A stretch of 64,000 nt of DNA from Acidobacteriota bacterium (GTDB lineage: Bacteria > Acidobacteriota > Vicinamibacteria > Vicinamibacterales > CAVVIG01), in assembly GCA_003222395.1 (NCBI GenBank), contig QHWB01000039.1, forward strand, positions 62,001-126,000, read 5' to 3'. Below are positions 34,869-39,809 of this stretch, piece after piece (position 1 is the first letter of the stretch; each line of letters starts with the position of its first letter). Position numbers and translations under genes: made by a program. The notes below the pieces were generated by a model. That model did no database searches and had not been told where the DNA came from. It saw only the letters and a list, made by a program, of their open reading frames with translations.

Positions 34869-36446
34869 ATGCTGGCCAGTCTCAGAACGGTGGCGCTGTT
34901 CGGTCTCGACGCCTGTCCCGTGCACGTCGAAGTCGACGTGTCGTTCGGTTTTCCGTCGTTCACGATGGTCGGGCTGCCCGACGCGAGCGTGCGTGAGAGC
35001 CGCGACCGCGTGAAGTCGGCTATCAGGAACTCGGGGTTCGACTTTCCGCCGCACAGAATCATCGTCAATCTGGCGCCGGCCGACGTGCGAAAGGCGGGCG
35101 CGTCGTTCGACTTGCCGATCGCGCTCGGCATCCTCGCGGCGAGCGGCGTCGTCGAGCGGCGCCACATCGCCGACCTCATTCTGCTCGGCGAGCTGTCGCT
35201 CGACGGATCGATTCAGGCGACGCGCGGCGTGCTGCCGATCGCCGTCGCCGCGCGCCGCGATCGTCTCGCCGGGCTGCTGCTGCCGGCATCCAACGCCGCC
35301 GAAGCCGCGATTGTCGAAGGCGTCGACGTCGTGCCCGTGTCGTCGCTCGTCGAAGCCGTCCGCGCGTTGAACGACCCCGCCGCCTTTCGTGCGTCGCTCT
35401 CGACTCGTCCCGCCCGTCCTGCGGTTACAGCCTCTCCCGCCCATCCAGCCTCTCCCGCCTTTCCTGCCCCTCCTGCCCCTCCTGCCCGCGCCCTGCCCGA
35501 TCTCGCCGACGTGCGCGGTCAACTGCTCGCGCGCCGAGCGTTGGAAGTGGCAGCCGCCGGCGGTCACAACGTGCTGCTGGTCGGACCGCCCGGCGCCGGC
35601 AAGACGATGATGGCGAGGCGCATGGCCGGCATCCTGCCGCCGCTGACGTTCGAGGAGGCACTCGAGGTGACGGCGGTGCATTCGGTGGCCGGCCTCCTGG
35701 GACCCGGCGGTACTCTGCTCGTCGAACGTCCGTTCCGCGCGCCGCATCACACCATCTCGAACGCGGCGCTCGTCGGCGGCGGCTCTCAGCCGCGGCCGGG
35801 CGAAGTCAGCCTCGCGCACCACGGCGTGCTCTTTCTCGACGAAATGCTCGAGTTCAGCCGCCACGTCCTCGAGGTGCTGCGTCAACCGCTCGAAGAAGGG
35901 TACGTCGCGATTGCACGCGCGGCCCGCACCGCGATCTTCCCCGCTCGCTTCATGCTGGTGGGTGCGATGAACCCGTGTCCGTGCGGTTTTGCCGGCGACT
36001 CGATGCGCGAGTGCCGCTGCACGCCGCAGCACGTCGCCCGCTATCGCAGCCGGCTTTCGGGACCGCTGCGCGACCGCCTCGATTTGACGGTGGACGTGCC
36101 CGCGCTGCCGCCCGAAGCGCTGGGGTCGGGATCGGATGGAGAAGCATCCGCGTGCGTCCGCGCGCGCGTCGTCGCCGCGCGCGAGCGCCAGCGGATGCGA
36201 TACGGCGACGATCCCCTTCTGACGAACGCCGCGCTCACGCCGTCGCTGATGTCGAAGCATTGTGCGCTCGACGGCCGCGGCGCGCGTGTGCTCGTGGCGG
36301 CCGTGCGGCAGATGTCGCTGAGCGCGCGTGCCTACGATCGGGTGAGGAAAGTCGCACGCACGATCGCCGATCTCGCTGGCGACGAGCGCGTCGCAGCAGA
36401 TCACATTGCCGAGGCGCTTCAGTTCCGGATGTCGGCCGACGGGTAA
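34869..36446 (+). CDS. comM: ComM/YifB-family AAA+ ATPase (Mg-chelatase-like)
   Basis: 525 residues. ComM is a hexameric helicase that promotes branch migration during natural transformation. N-terminal Lon-protease-like domain begins LASLRTVALFGLDACPVHVE, with VNLAPADVRKAGASFDLPIA. Central AAA+ has Walker A LLVGPPGAGKTMMARRMAG, RPFRAPHHTISNAALVGGG, Walker B VLFLDEMLEFSRHVLEVLRQ and the zinc-finger-like NPCPCGFAGDSMRECRCTPQ. The C-terminal domain ends LAGDERVAADHIAEALQFR. Between the domains (about residues 180-212) lies a repetitive Pro/Ala/Ser spacer. Start ATG 34869 matches the family N-terminus. Upstream in-frame codons have no family match. Confidence 0.92.
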   Translation: MLASLRTVALFGLDACPVHVEVDVSFGFPSFTMVGLPDASVRESRDRVKSAIRNSGFDFPPHRIIVNLAPADVRKAGASFDLPIALGILAASGVVERRHIADLILLGELSLDGSIQATRGVLPIAVAARRDRLAGLLLPASNAAEAAIVEGVDVVPVSSLVEAVRALNDPAAFRASLSTRPARPAVTASPAHPASPAFPAPPAPPARALPDLADVRGQLLARRALEVAAAGGHNVLLVGPPGAGKTMMARRMAGILPPLTFEEALEVTAVHSVAGLLGPGGTLLVERPFRAPHHTISNAALVGGGSQPRPGEVSLAHHGVLFLDEMLEFSRHVLEVLRQPLEEGYVAIARAARTAIFPARFMLVGAMNPCPCGFAGDSMRECRCTPQHVARYRSRLSGPLRDRLDLTVDVPALPPEALGSGSDGEASACVRARVVAARERQRMRYGDDPLLTNAALTPSLMSKHCALDGRGARVLVAAVRQMSLSARAYDRVRKVARTIADLAGDERVAADHIAEALQFRMSADG

Positions 36447-36470
36447 GCGTTTCCTGCCTTCGCTCTTCGA

Positions 36471-36493
36471 GCTGCGGCGCGGCGCGCCGCAGC
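36471..36493. repeat. perfect GC palindrome between convergent genes
   Basis: GCTGCGGCGCG and CGCGCCGCAGC are 11-bp inverted arms around one central G, between the comM stop and the hydrolase fusion stop. The adjoining stretch to 36530 is a GC-rich segment with further short inverted motifs (GCGCCGAAGGCGC). It may act as a terminator for both genes (inference), but it also looks like part of a dispersed intergenic repeat. Confidence 0.55.
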
Positions 36494-36529
36494 GCCGAAG
36501 GCGCGGAGGCGGCAAGACGAGAGTCGGCT

Positions 36530-38722
36530 TCAGCCTCGATCGAGCAGCGTCGACAGCGCGCGTGAGTCTCCGGCCGGCGGCGTGATGACAAGGCCGGTCA
36601 TGCTCAGCGTCCCCTTGTCGAGGGCGCGCGCGAGGAGGTCGAAGCACTCGAGGCAGTGGGCGCGAAGGGCGAAGGCCGCCGCCACGAAACCCGCGTCGGT
36701 GACGCTGGCGCCGTGATCGAGCAACAAGCGAACGGTGGCCGCGTCGCCGACGTTTGCCGCTTCGACGAGCGCGCTGGTCGGATTGTTGAGGCGTCCCGCT
36801 TTCAGTGACGCGCTGGCGCCGTAGTCGAGCAACATCTTCACGACGGACGCGCCGCCGCGACGGCCGGCCGCAACGAACAACGCCGTCTTCCCGTGATCGG
36901 ACTGGATGTTCGGGTCGGCGCCGTACTCGAGAAGCAGGCGCGTCTTCGCGTCATCGCCGGCCGACCACATGAGCGCTGTCGCGCCTGCGTCGTTTGTCGC
37001 GTCCGGATCGGCGCCTTCGTCGAGCAGACGTTGTACTTCAGCGACGTCGCTGTACAGCACCGCGCGCATCAGGGGCGGTGTCGGAAGCGCCGGCGTTTCT
37101 CCAGCCGCTTCGTCGGGCCATTCCGCTCCCCGATCGATCCATTCCTTGATCGCGGCAATCTGTTCTGCCGCGAGCGGTCCCGTGGGCGGCATCTGCATCC
37201 CGAACCGGTTGCCGATCAGCCGCTGATACAACCGGCTCGCGGCGCTGTCGCCGCGACCGATGACCGGTCCGGTGCCGCCACGCATCGCGTCGGCGCGCCG
37301 ATCGAGGCGGAACCCGTTTTGATGAATCGACGGTCCGTGGCAGCCGTAGCAGTTCTGCCGGAAGATCGGCTGCACGTCGCGGACGAAATCGACGCCGGCC
37401 TGCGGCGCAGACGATGGCGCCGGCTTGATCGTCAGACCGCCGGGATCGTTCGGCCGCAGTGGATCGGTGAACGTCATTCCCGCGTTGCTCAAGTCGCCTT
37501 CGACCTCGTCGCCGTGCGGCTTCGTCCCCTGCCGCACCCACTTCACCAAATCGTCGAACGCTCTGATCTGCTCCGTCTGACTGAAGCCGCAGTGTCCCGC
37601 GATGCGATAGATGCGCTGGGCGAGGAGCTTTTCGTTTCCCGTTGCCGCGACAGCGCGCTTCAAGACCTGTTGCAGAAAGATCGGCACGAACAGATCACCG
37701 GTGCCGTGCATGGTCAGCAGCGGCCGCTCGATCCTGCCGTCGAATGGCGCGACTTCTTCGTACGGCGTCTTGTCGCCGCGGTACTCGGGATCGGCCGTCT
37801 TGCGTCGGACACGCTGGTTCAGACTGTCGCTCGTAAGCCCGAGGCCGCCGTCGATCGCGTACCTGATGTGCGTGGTCGTGACGGCGCGATTCTGCGGCGT
37901 GACGATGCCGGCGAGCGCCGATCCGCTGATGTTCGCGGTGAAGCGTCCTCCAGACGCGAGTCCTTCGAGGGCGAACGGCCGCGGTCCGCCGCTGATCCGG
38001 ATTTCGACGCTGGCGAGTTGGCGTCCCTTTTCCGTGTAGTCGGGCGGCTCGCCCAATTGCTCGACGATCTTCGCCGTGTCCTGCCGGATCGAATCGGACT
38101 TGAACTCGACGCCGGTAATCGCTTCGGCGCCGGCGCCGACGGCGGCGTAAAAGTCGAACAACTCCGGTCCAGCGGGACACATCGCGAGACCGCCGGCAAA
38201 CGCGGTTGGAAATTCGTGCAGACCGAGAATCGTGACGTGTCCGCCCATCGACGTGCCGGTCAGATACGTGCGCTGCGGTGCGCGGCCGCCGTTCGATTTC
38301 GTGAACAGCTCGACGAGCGCCATCGTGTCGACGAGACCTTGCCCGGGCACGTAGCCGTTGCACCGGTAGCTCGACGCGGCCCAGGCGAATCCTTCTCGGA
38401 CGAGATGTTCGCGGATGGTGTGGTTGCCGACGCGCAGGCTGGATCCGTTCTGCCCCTGGTTGGCCACGTAGCCGTGAGCGTAGAGCACGAGCTCGCCGTT
38501 CCAGTTGTCGGGAATCTCGATGCGGTAGAGTCCGCCGTCGTACCTGCCGAAGAACGCCTTCGCGCCGGCGAGCGGTTCGAACGCTGCCTCGCCGTACTGC
38601 CATTCCTGTTGCGGGCACGGCACCGGTTTGATGCCGGGTTTCCCGAGAGCGTTCGGCCGTGTTGTGAGCGCGGCGGCGACGCATGCGCAAGCAGCGGCGC
38701 CGATCAGAGCACGGATGCGCAT
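36530..38722 (-). CDS. secreted alpha/beta hydrolase - cytochrome c - ankyrin fusion
   Basis: 730 residues. Signal peptide RIRALIGAAACACVAAALT, then an alpha/beta hydrolase domain (about 35-410) with the nucleophile elbow TYLTGTSMGGHVTILG (Ser near 158), LLTMHGTGDLFVPI (acid) and GHCGFSQTEQ (His). Next a planctomycete-type cytochrome c segment (about 440-540) with the haem motif QNCYGCHGPSIHQNGF and the distal region RFGMQMPPTGPLAA. Last, ankyrin repeats (about 550-700; LLDEGADPDATNDAGATAL; TRLLLEYGADPNIQSDHGKT). The reading frame ends right after an ankyrin-like ALSTLLDRG, at a stop lying in GGCTGAAGCCGA, a sequence that also appears at about 26454. The protein may be cut short. Role unknown; an extracellular, membrane-tethered redox or ester hydrolase assembly is a guess. 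Confidence 0.82.
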   Translation of the reverse strand: MRIRALIGAAACACVAAALTTRPNALGKPGIKPVPCPQQEWQYGEAAFEPLAGAKAFFGRYDGGLYRIEIPDNWNGELVLYAHGYVANQGQNGSSLRVGNHTIREHLVREGFAWAASSYRCNGYVPGQGLVDTMALVELFTKSNGGRAPQRTYLTGTSMGGHVTILGLHEFPTAFAGGLAMCPAGPELFDFYAAVGAGAEAITGVEFKSDSIRQDTAKIVEQLGEPPDYTEKGRQLASVEIRISGGPRPFALEGLASGGRFTANISGSALAGIVTPQNRAVTTTHIRYAIDGGLGLTSDSLNQRVRRKTADPEYRGDKTPYEEVAPFDGRIERPLLTMHGTGDLFVPIFLQQVLKRAVAATGNEKLLAQRIYRIAGHCGFSQTEQIRAFDDLVKWVRQGTKPHGDEVEGDLSNAGMTFTDPLRPNDPGGLTIKPAPSSAPQAGVDFVRDVQPIFRQNCYGCHGPSIHQNGFRLDRRADAMRGGTGPVIGRGDSAASRLYQRLIGNRFGMQMPPTGPLAAEQIAAIKEWIDRGAEWPDEAAGETPALPTPPLMRAVLYSDVAEVQRLLDEGADPDATNDAGATALMWSAGDDAKTRLLLEYGADPNIQSDHGKTALFVAAGRRGGASVVKMLLDYGASASLKAGRLNNPTSALVEAANVGDAATVRLLLDHGASVTDAGFVAAAFALRAHCLECFDLLARALDKGTLSMTGLVITPPAGDSRALSTLLDRG

Positions 38723-38897
38723 ATCGATCTCCCCGGTCCGCGCATAGTACCAGACTCAACTGTATCGACCGGTAAACTTTCGTCGCTTGTTCGCCGCGAG
38801 GATTTGCGTGTTTGTGGCCGATATGCCTTGTGATAGAGTTTGCGAACTTCGGACGCGGCGGCTTTTCGCGTCCATCCCCTTTAATCGCAAGTTGTTA

Positions 38898-39809
38898 ATG
38901 AAACCTCACCGGTATACGGTGATTATCGCGGACCGCTCGAGCGGCGCTGTTCGTCGCGTAACGATCAGTCTGCGTCCGTTTTTCGCGGCGACTCTCGGCA
39001 TCTTCGCGCTGCCGGTTCTCATCGGGCTCGGCGCCAAATGGAGCGCACGAACCGAAATCGGGGATCTTCAGTTCACTAATGCCGCGCTGGAGATCGAGAA
39101 CGGCAGCTACCGCGCGGCCACCGGCGAGCTGACCACTCAGATCCAGTCGCTCGAAGGCGTCATCAACGAGCTCGGCGCGCGCGCCGAAGTCGATCCCGCC
39201 CAGGCGCGAGCGATGCAGAAGCTGCCGGCCGTCGTTAAAACCAGGGCTGCCGGAGGATCGCCGACCGCGACGATGTCGGAGCTCAGCCGAGTACCGCTCG
39301 CGTCGCCCGAAGACACGTTCGGTGTACTGCGCGATCTGCTCCACGGACTCGAGAGCCGGTTGCGCATCGTGCGTAAGGACGTCGAAGTCCGCGAGGCGCT
39401 CGCGGCGGCGACGCCGTCGATCTGGCCGGCGCACGGCTGGCTGACCGGCACGTTCGGCGGCCGCAGCGATCCGTTCACCGGCGAGCCCGGCTTCCATCAG
39501 GGCCTCGACATCTCGACGGAAAAAGGTCAGCCGGTTTACGCCACCGCGACCGGCGACGTGACGTCAGCCGCGTACACAGGCGACTACGGAAATCTCATTC
39601 AGCTCGACCACGGATTCGGATTGACGACGCGCTACGGTCACCTGAGCGCGTTCGCGGTGAAGCCCGATCAGCACGTCCGGCGCGGCGACGTGATCGGCTA
39701 CGTCGGATCGACCGGTCGATCGACCGGCGCGCACGTGCACTACGAGATCCTCGCGAACGGCAAATTGATCAACCCGCTGCAGCTCCTCACGCAACCCGCC
39801 ACTCGATAG
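38898..39809 (+). CDS. M23-family metallopeptidase (murein endopeptidase-like)
   Basis: 303 residues. N-terminal cytosolic or membrane-proximal part PHRYTVIIADRSSGAVRRVT, one membrane helix (FFAATLGIFALPVLIGLGAK), a coiled coil (SYRAATGELTTQIQSLEGVI) and a C-terminal LytM/M23 domain with zinc ligands in FHQGLDISTEKGQPVYAT and TGAHVHYEILANGKLINPLQ (HxH). The catalytic pattern HxGLD and HVHYE is complete. It cleaves or binds peptide cross-bridges near the inner membrane, like MepM or EnvC. Start ATG 38898 chosen by the family N-terminus MKPHRYTVIIAD. Divergent from the fusion gene. Confidence 0.88.
   Translation: MKPHRYTVIIADRSSGAVRRVTISLRPFFAATLGIFALPVLIGLGAKWSARTEIGDLQFTNAALEIENGSYRAATGELTTQIQSLEGVINELGARAEVDPAQARAMQKLPAVVKTRAAGGSPTATMSELSRVPLASPEDTFGVLRDLLHGLESRLRIVRKDVEVREALAAATPSIWPAHGWLTGTFGGRSDPFTGEPGFHQGLDISTEKGQPVYATATGDVTSAAYTGDYGNLIQLDHGFGLTTRYGHLSAFAVKPDQHVRRGDVIGYVGSTGRSTGAHVHYEILANGKLINPLQLLTQPATR

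Follow-up and report, generated by a model that had tools for sequence, protein, structure and literature searches.

A Cytochrome–Ankyrin Protein Fused to a Predicted Ester Hydrolase in Two Related Acidobacteria, with Separate Genes in a Relative

Why should a hydrolase, a haem-binding segment and a set of ankyrin repeats be carried by one protein that appears to be secreted? The question is raised by a gene in the draft genome of an Acidobacteriota bacterium (G000; 7.74 Mb in 118 contigs), which lies at positions 36530-38722 on the reverse strand of the 64,000-nucleotide stretch analysed here (hereafter, the window) and belongs to a 443-kb contig. The original prediction had correctly seen one apparently secreted chain with a Ser-Asp-His hydrolase, one CYGCH haem segment and ankyrin repeats; indeed, a single frame of 730 amino acids with no internal stop encodes them, and the modules find matches in Pfam. 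The explanation that we favour, with a probability of about one half, is that neighbouring genes from a periplasmic ester/alcohol oxidation operon were fused and that the copy in the window was later truncated.

The gene is read in the reverse direction through all of its modules. Residues 1-28 or so (38639-38722) look like a signal peptide as read from the sequence, and the N termini of the relatives are also hydrophobic. The alpha/beta hydrolase module (about residues 36-424, 37451-38617), as delimited by Pfam, alignment and a structure model, is followed by a linker containing KPAPSSAPQAG (residues 425-443, 37394-37450), which was recognized by comparison with the related genome G005. Pfam and alignment then place a PSCyt1-type cytochrome c module at about residues 444-548 (37079-37393), and Pfam and comparison with relatives place ankyrin repeats at 36533-37075, the final repeat being cut by the stop codon at 36530-36532. 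The four motifs GTSMGG, HGTGDLF, GHCGFSQ and CYGCH are all present, and the GC content at third codon positions is 0.78-0.84 across the hydrolase, cytochrome and ankyrin modules. In NCBIfam, the protein has eight matches, all far below the cut-offs, and a simple scan of 36380-38900 found no sigma-70-like promoter. Contacts between the domains are left aside here, because the structure model of the whole protein has a mean pLDDT of 56.4 (8 rows).

The N-terminal module is apparently a secreted protein part and is predicted to be an ester hydrolase. Conservation of its triad had been proposed as a check, and it held in an alignment of 13 rows, for which relatives were chosen from the bacterium's own family out to Bacillus, Pseudoxanthomonas and Cesiribacter: the nucleophile Ser158 (GTSMGG; 38249-38251), Asp343 (HGTGDLF; 37694-37696) and His377 (GHCGF; 37592-37594) are invariant in 13/13 rows. 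Left out of this alignment were L027 (a near-copy of L026), a broken copy in G022 without the Ser region, and weaker or interrupted matches in G024, G059, G004 and G015. Also invariant are Cys182 (38177-38179) and Cys378 (37589-37591), the latter adjoining the catalytic His. Tannases have a CS-D-HC motif, in which one Cys precedes the Ser and another follows the His. The HC half is present in the window protein, but Thr157 precedes Ser158 and no Cys stands before the Ser in any of the 13 rows; Cys182 and Cys378 might pair as a disulfide, like a displaced form of the tannase link.

In Pfam, Peptidase_S9 reaches the hydrolase module above its cut-off (E 2.7e-7), and Tannase, Hydrolase_4 and Esterase match it below theirs; for the tannase/feruloyl esterase family (PF07519), the window protein scores 21.0 bits against a gathering score of 29.8, and a Bacillus relative (L025) scores 30.7. 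The AlphaFold model of the module has a mean pLDDT of only 58.4 (below 50 at residues 186-325 and better in the core), but it still matches the alpha/beta hydrolase fold with Z up to 20.4 in VIA-align, where the Pyrococcus esterase Pf2001 comes top (rmsd 3.2, 232 residues aligned) and PETases rank among the first (Z about 19). The lowest E-values in Foldseek, about 3e-10, belong to feruloyl esterases (C and B among them), with lipases and MHETase close behind, and the feruloyl esterase and MHETase matches have TM-scores of about 0.3-0.4 and rmsd of about 10-14. The module is like tannase, feruloyl esterase and MHETase in its Ser-Asp-His triad, in the Cys right after the catalytic His and in the low Foldseek E-values, but unlike them in the low TM-scores, in the Tannase score below the cut-off and in having no Cys before the nucleophile. 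Among plasmid records, 27 relatives of the hydrolase were found, all below 60% identity, and the best names among the 12 listed were "alpha/beta hydrolase" and "o-phthalyl amidase."

The second module matches PSCyt1 (PF07635) over residues 458-515 with an E-value of 1.4e-11 and 45.2 bits against a gathering score of 22. Its CYGCH (residues 458-462, 37337-37351) is a predicted haem site, and a Met follows downstream in QMPPTG (Met511, 37190-37192); this residue is kept in 4/4 orthologues and 3/3 paralogues aligned and is a candidate for the distal haem ligand. The repeats match Ank_2 above its cut-off over residues 551-640 (E 6.4e-19) and Ank (PF00023) in four stretches with 60.8 bits against a cut-off of 21.1. 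In G005, the corresponding protein is longer: its 716 residues comprise the PSCyt1 cytochrome, the ankyrin repeats, a second CXXCH (CVSCH) and a squalene-cyclase-like toroid, and the same order is seen in G017. The toroid stretch matches squalene-hopene cyclase domains just above the cut-off in both G005 and G017. The gene that follows the cytochrome gene in G005 (L031:3-1058) has no match in Pfam and NCBIfam.

Would the join be a one-off of a single assembly? The original prediction had named this as a point to check, and the three-domain fusion is found, again in frame, in G017. A family search matched 12 of 27 genomes at E<=1e-3, and nine of these have a close orthologue of the hydrolase with 64-72% identity to that of the window (G000, i.e., the window's genome, and G001, G005, G008, G016, G017, G020, G022 and G023). 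The hydrolase is fused in two of the nine, G000 and G017; the frame in G017 runs for 1157 amino acids up to the contig end, contains two CXXCH and extends over the G005 partner as far as residue 702/716. In G005, the hydrolase (453 amino acids) and the cytochrome-ankyrin protein (716 amino acids) have a gene each; 15 bp lie between the two, and the second gene opens with a signal-peptide-like sequence of its own. The gene layout in an Acidobacteria MAG (JANYHS010000350.1, L024) agrees with G005. The second gene in G023 starts as in G005 and then runs off the end of its contig; in the same genome, contig C27 opens with an identical stretch and has a deletion and a frame change inside the ankyrin repeats (L125, L081). 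By tblastn, no cytochrome-ankyrin gene was found beside the hydrolase in the fetched regions of G001, G008, G016, G020 and G022. The orthologue in G022 (L037 2279-3342, G022:C496) is a broken copy, in which the frame changes and the nucleophile region is gone, as part of a gap of about 80 residues.

At the class level, 22 of 193 genomes match a profile of the 13 rows at E<=1e-20, and frames of more than 600 amino acids occur in G000 and G017 only. An even sample of the phylum gave 44 matching genomes out of 396 with a sole further frame of this size, in G206; the 763-aa frame was considered as a sign of a wider fusion and rejected, as it reads by eye as a hydrolase relative without CXXCH or ankyrin part. 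When 46 loci with hydrolase relatives (a few covering the same place twice, and most with flanks of about 1.5 kb) were searched by tblastn with the cytochrome and ankyrin parts of the window protein, the best cytochrome match had an E-value of 0.13 and one ankyrin match reached 1e-5 (L026); a CXXCH preceded by P-x-hydrophobic was found in one of these loci (L039), where it is not cytochrome-like by eye. The fusion is real, shared by two related Acidobacteria, and local. In the literature searched, which left most subscription papers beyond its reach, this architecture was not found described by title or abstract.

Where the separate genes of G005 have a stop codon, a gap of 15 bases and a new signal-peptide-like start, each fused gene has a short linker, which reads KPAPSSAPQAG in the window protein and KPSSQPQAAAQAR in that of G017. 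Both look like the result of an in-frame loss of the stop codon and most of the second signal peptide. The hydrolase gene is near genes which we take to be M23 and secA in eight of the nine genomes and stands directly beside the M23 gene in six; in G005 and G023, a gene for a PQQ-type alcohol dehydrogenase stands between them, and the contig of G022 does not reach M23/secA. In the hydrolase tree, the window groups with G017 and G020 (82/80), G005 groups with G023 and G022 (90/93), and all six form a clade (100/99); a clade of the window and G017 alone is rejected (p 5e-5), and with a far outgroup the grouping of the window, G017 and G020 is unresolved. The cytochrome tree unites G017 and G005 (99/97), the ankyrin tree unites the window and G017 (94/91), and the SecA tree unites G017 with G005 and G023 (96/90). 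Also, a two-residue insertion in the cytochrome module is common to G017 and G005, as against the window and G023. Recombination between neighbouring modules is a possible reason for the disagreement among the cytochrome, ankyrin, hydrolase and SecA trees. A single fusion would be permitted by the hydrolase tree, but the cytochrome and SecA trees both speak against one that the window and G017 have in common, so that there may have been one fusion or two.

Compared with the G017 protein, the window copy lacks its C-terminal part. It ends at LLDRG inside an ankyrin repeat that goes on in G017 and G005, roughly 400 amino acids before the end of the partner in these genomes, and has neither the second haem nor the toroid; this truncation is a feature that the original prediction did not mention. 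When the missing end was sought in the window genome with the G005 protein, none of the 27 matches extended past residue 401 of 716; the window gene itself covers G005 residues 20-321, and the other matches are paralogues or repeats. Downstream of the fused gene lies a convergent gene, presumably comM. We then counted the changes found only in the window and only in G017, module by module. The numbers are 34 and 37 for the hydrolase (392 columns), 17 and 8 for the cytochrome (104 columns, p 0.11) and 29 and 12 for the ankyrin part (183 columns, p 0.012), and the ankyrin part differs in rate from the hydrolase in the window copy with p 0.029. The faster change fits relaxed constraint on the ankyrin part, although the effect is a modest one and, given the conflict among the trees, recombination may have distorted it.

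What had the hydrolase and the cytochrome to do with each other before they were joined? A PQQ-alcohol-dehydrogenase-like gene is located directly upstream of the hydrolase gene in G005, G023 and G022, and in G006 a PQQ-type gene is at the same place, with the contig ending inside it and M23 on its other side. TIGR03075 scores above its cut-off for both copies tested (G005 and G023), and among solved structures the G005 protein has its best matches in the quinoprotein ethanol dehydrogenases 6zcv (E 3e-103) and 6zcw (E 4e-102). A vicinal Cys pair, GTGNP and RPGDN are present in 4/4 PQQ-type copies and GVAGGE in three, being absent in G022; the copies in G022 and G006 have one and two internal stops, respectively. 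In the text available for PMC12997753, vicinal Cys pairs are tied to electron transfer to cytochrome c550. By E-value, nonetheless, the best NCBIfam match of the G005 quinoprotein is "acido-empty-quinoprotein group A" (537.2 bits, below the cut-off of 650), and its binding of PQQ is not certain because this match is nearly level with the PQQ family (535.8 bits). Neither of the genomes with the fusion (G000 and G017) has a PQQ-type gene at this locus; also, the window protein has no match to a PQQ propeller, and there is no room for such a gene between the fused gene and the M23 gene.

The unfused gene order suggests a relay from esterase to alcohol dehydrogenase to cytochrome. In the unfused form (G005, and G023, whose third gene is damaged), one strand carries in succession the genes for a PQQ-type alcohol dehydrogenase, an apparently secreted hydrolase and a dihaem cytochrome-ankyrin-toroid protein; the hydrolase would cut an ester outside the cytoplasm, the quinoprotein would oxidize the alcohol thus freed, and the cytochrome would hand the electrons on to respiration, with the ankyrin repeats and the toroid perhaps holding the partners together. 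Hydrolysis followed by oxidation by partner proteins is plausible on these grounds. In G017 and the window genome, neither the stop codon nor the second signal peptide is left, which puts hydrolase and cytochrome on one chain; the window copy would afterwards have lost the second haem and the toroid. The order of events that we infer as most likely is, therefore, operon, fusion and then truncation in the window genome. The hydrolase of the window protein should still work as an esterase and is most likely the working part of the protein, and what is left of the haem part probably amounts to a remnant or to a minor carrier with a single haem. A full-length fusion as in G017 could also serve as a single-chain hub, which would set an alcohol free by cleaving an ester and then take up the electrons from the oxidation of that alcohol by a quinoprotein; we consider this rather unlikely, but if true, ester cleavage and respiration would be physically coupled at the cell envelope.

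The reading closest to the original prediction, in which the haem domain regulates the hydrolase on the same chain or is chemically coupled to it, is improbable. It would be consistent with the intact modules in one open frame, with the conserved triad, CXXCH and QMPPTG Met, and with the similar linkers in two genomes, but the proteins are separate in G005 and separate at the start in G023, the ankyrin part of the truncated window copy is changing faster than the hydrolase, and the fusion occurs in only 2/193 genomes of the class. The same observations, together with the five genomes that have a close hydrolase and no adjacent cytochrome gene, count against a redox-linked hydrolase of a new class, as predicted; a link between ester cleavage and redox chemistry within one chain is not supported, as what stands behind it is co-occurrence. 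A redox setting has indirect support from the PQQ-dehydrogenase-like gene beside the unfused pair, a gene that the window locus lacks.

The truncation and the faster change of the ankyrin part fit a different possibility, namely that the cytochrome-ankyrin tail is a decaying passenger, an adjacent gene joined by a deletion and now being lost. The frame break in the G023 gene agrees with this, and so does G020, which has no cytochrome gene beside the hydrolase even though the hydrolase tree places it with the two fused genomes. We regard such decay as the less favoured explanation, however, in that the 730-aa frame is open with its CXXCH and Met kept and its third-position GC at 0.78-0.84, and a nearly full-length fusion is retained in G017. 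Much the least probable is an artefact, in which two genes were joined or a 3' end was lost in a draft assembly. All the genomes are indeed drafts, several relatives also have frame breaks, and a single assembly is the source for the lost 3' end; we nonetheless reject a false join of two genes, because G017 has the same in-frame join, the linkers are alike and no trace of a signal peptide remains between the modules, and the gene lies in a 443-kb contig. Fusion of operon neighbours followed by truncation accordingly remains our preferred account.

How does this protein compare with known systems? In the accessible part of a study on Verrucomicrobia (PMC5615132), the PSCyt haem domain is joined to other modules including protein-interaction domains, in proteins predicted to be periplasmic or cytoplasmic; planctomycete-type cytochromes are described as numerous in some of these genomes, where their functions are not known. 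The window protein is alike in having a PSCyt haem domain fused to other modules, but the partners named there are PSD, CBM, Big_2, WD40 and F5/F8 instead of a hydrolase and ankyrin repeats, and "ankyrin" and "esterase" have 0 occurrences in the main text available for that study. The gene order in G005 and G023 resembles that of the quinoprotein ethanol dehydrogenase PedE/ExaA with its cytochrome c550 (PedF/ExaB), in that such a dehydrogenase gene is close to a c-type cytochrome gene; the acceptor candidate here is, however, the dihaem-ankyrin-toroid protein, the hydrolase gene lies in between, and the window locus has no dehydrogenase. In type II quinohaemoprotein alcohol dehydrogenases (1kv9, 1yiq), cytochrome c is fused to a periplasmic enzyme, and these two structures are among the PDB matches of the neighbouring gene in G005. 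Their cytochrome is on the dehydrogenase itself, whereas that of the window protein is on a hydrolase, which has no redox chemistry; the PQQ propeller that marks this class is found neither in the window protein nor at its locus, and G005 and G023 have one encoded next to the hydrolase. The window copy matters less than the partner set because it is truncated. A cytochrome gene that follows esterase and PQQ-type dehydrogenase genes, and that is fused with the esterase in two genomes, gives a concrete set of partners and raises the question of whether the cytochrome-ankyrin protein is the electron acceptor of the quinoprotein.

PQQ-type genes are common in the family, with matches in 25 of 27 genomes, and one that lies nearby for this reason carries less weight here than it might in other genomes. 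At E<=1e-60, a PQQ-type alcohol dehydrogenase query finds 19 matches in the window genome, which also has many open frames with cytochrome or ankyrin sequences; both sets look expanded. Around the paralogues of the cytochrome-ankyrin gene, eight regions of 5 to 14 kb (L117-L124) contained no PQQ-type match at E<=1e-5. One paralogue in G005 is followed by a glucose/sorbosone-dehydrogenase gene (PF07995); in this cluster on G005:C73 (L116 81-8028), the further genes encode a protein that matches cytochromes weakly, another that has no match, and a PQQ-propeller/cytochrome protein.
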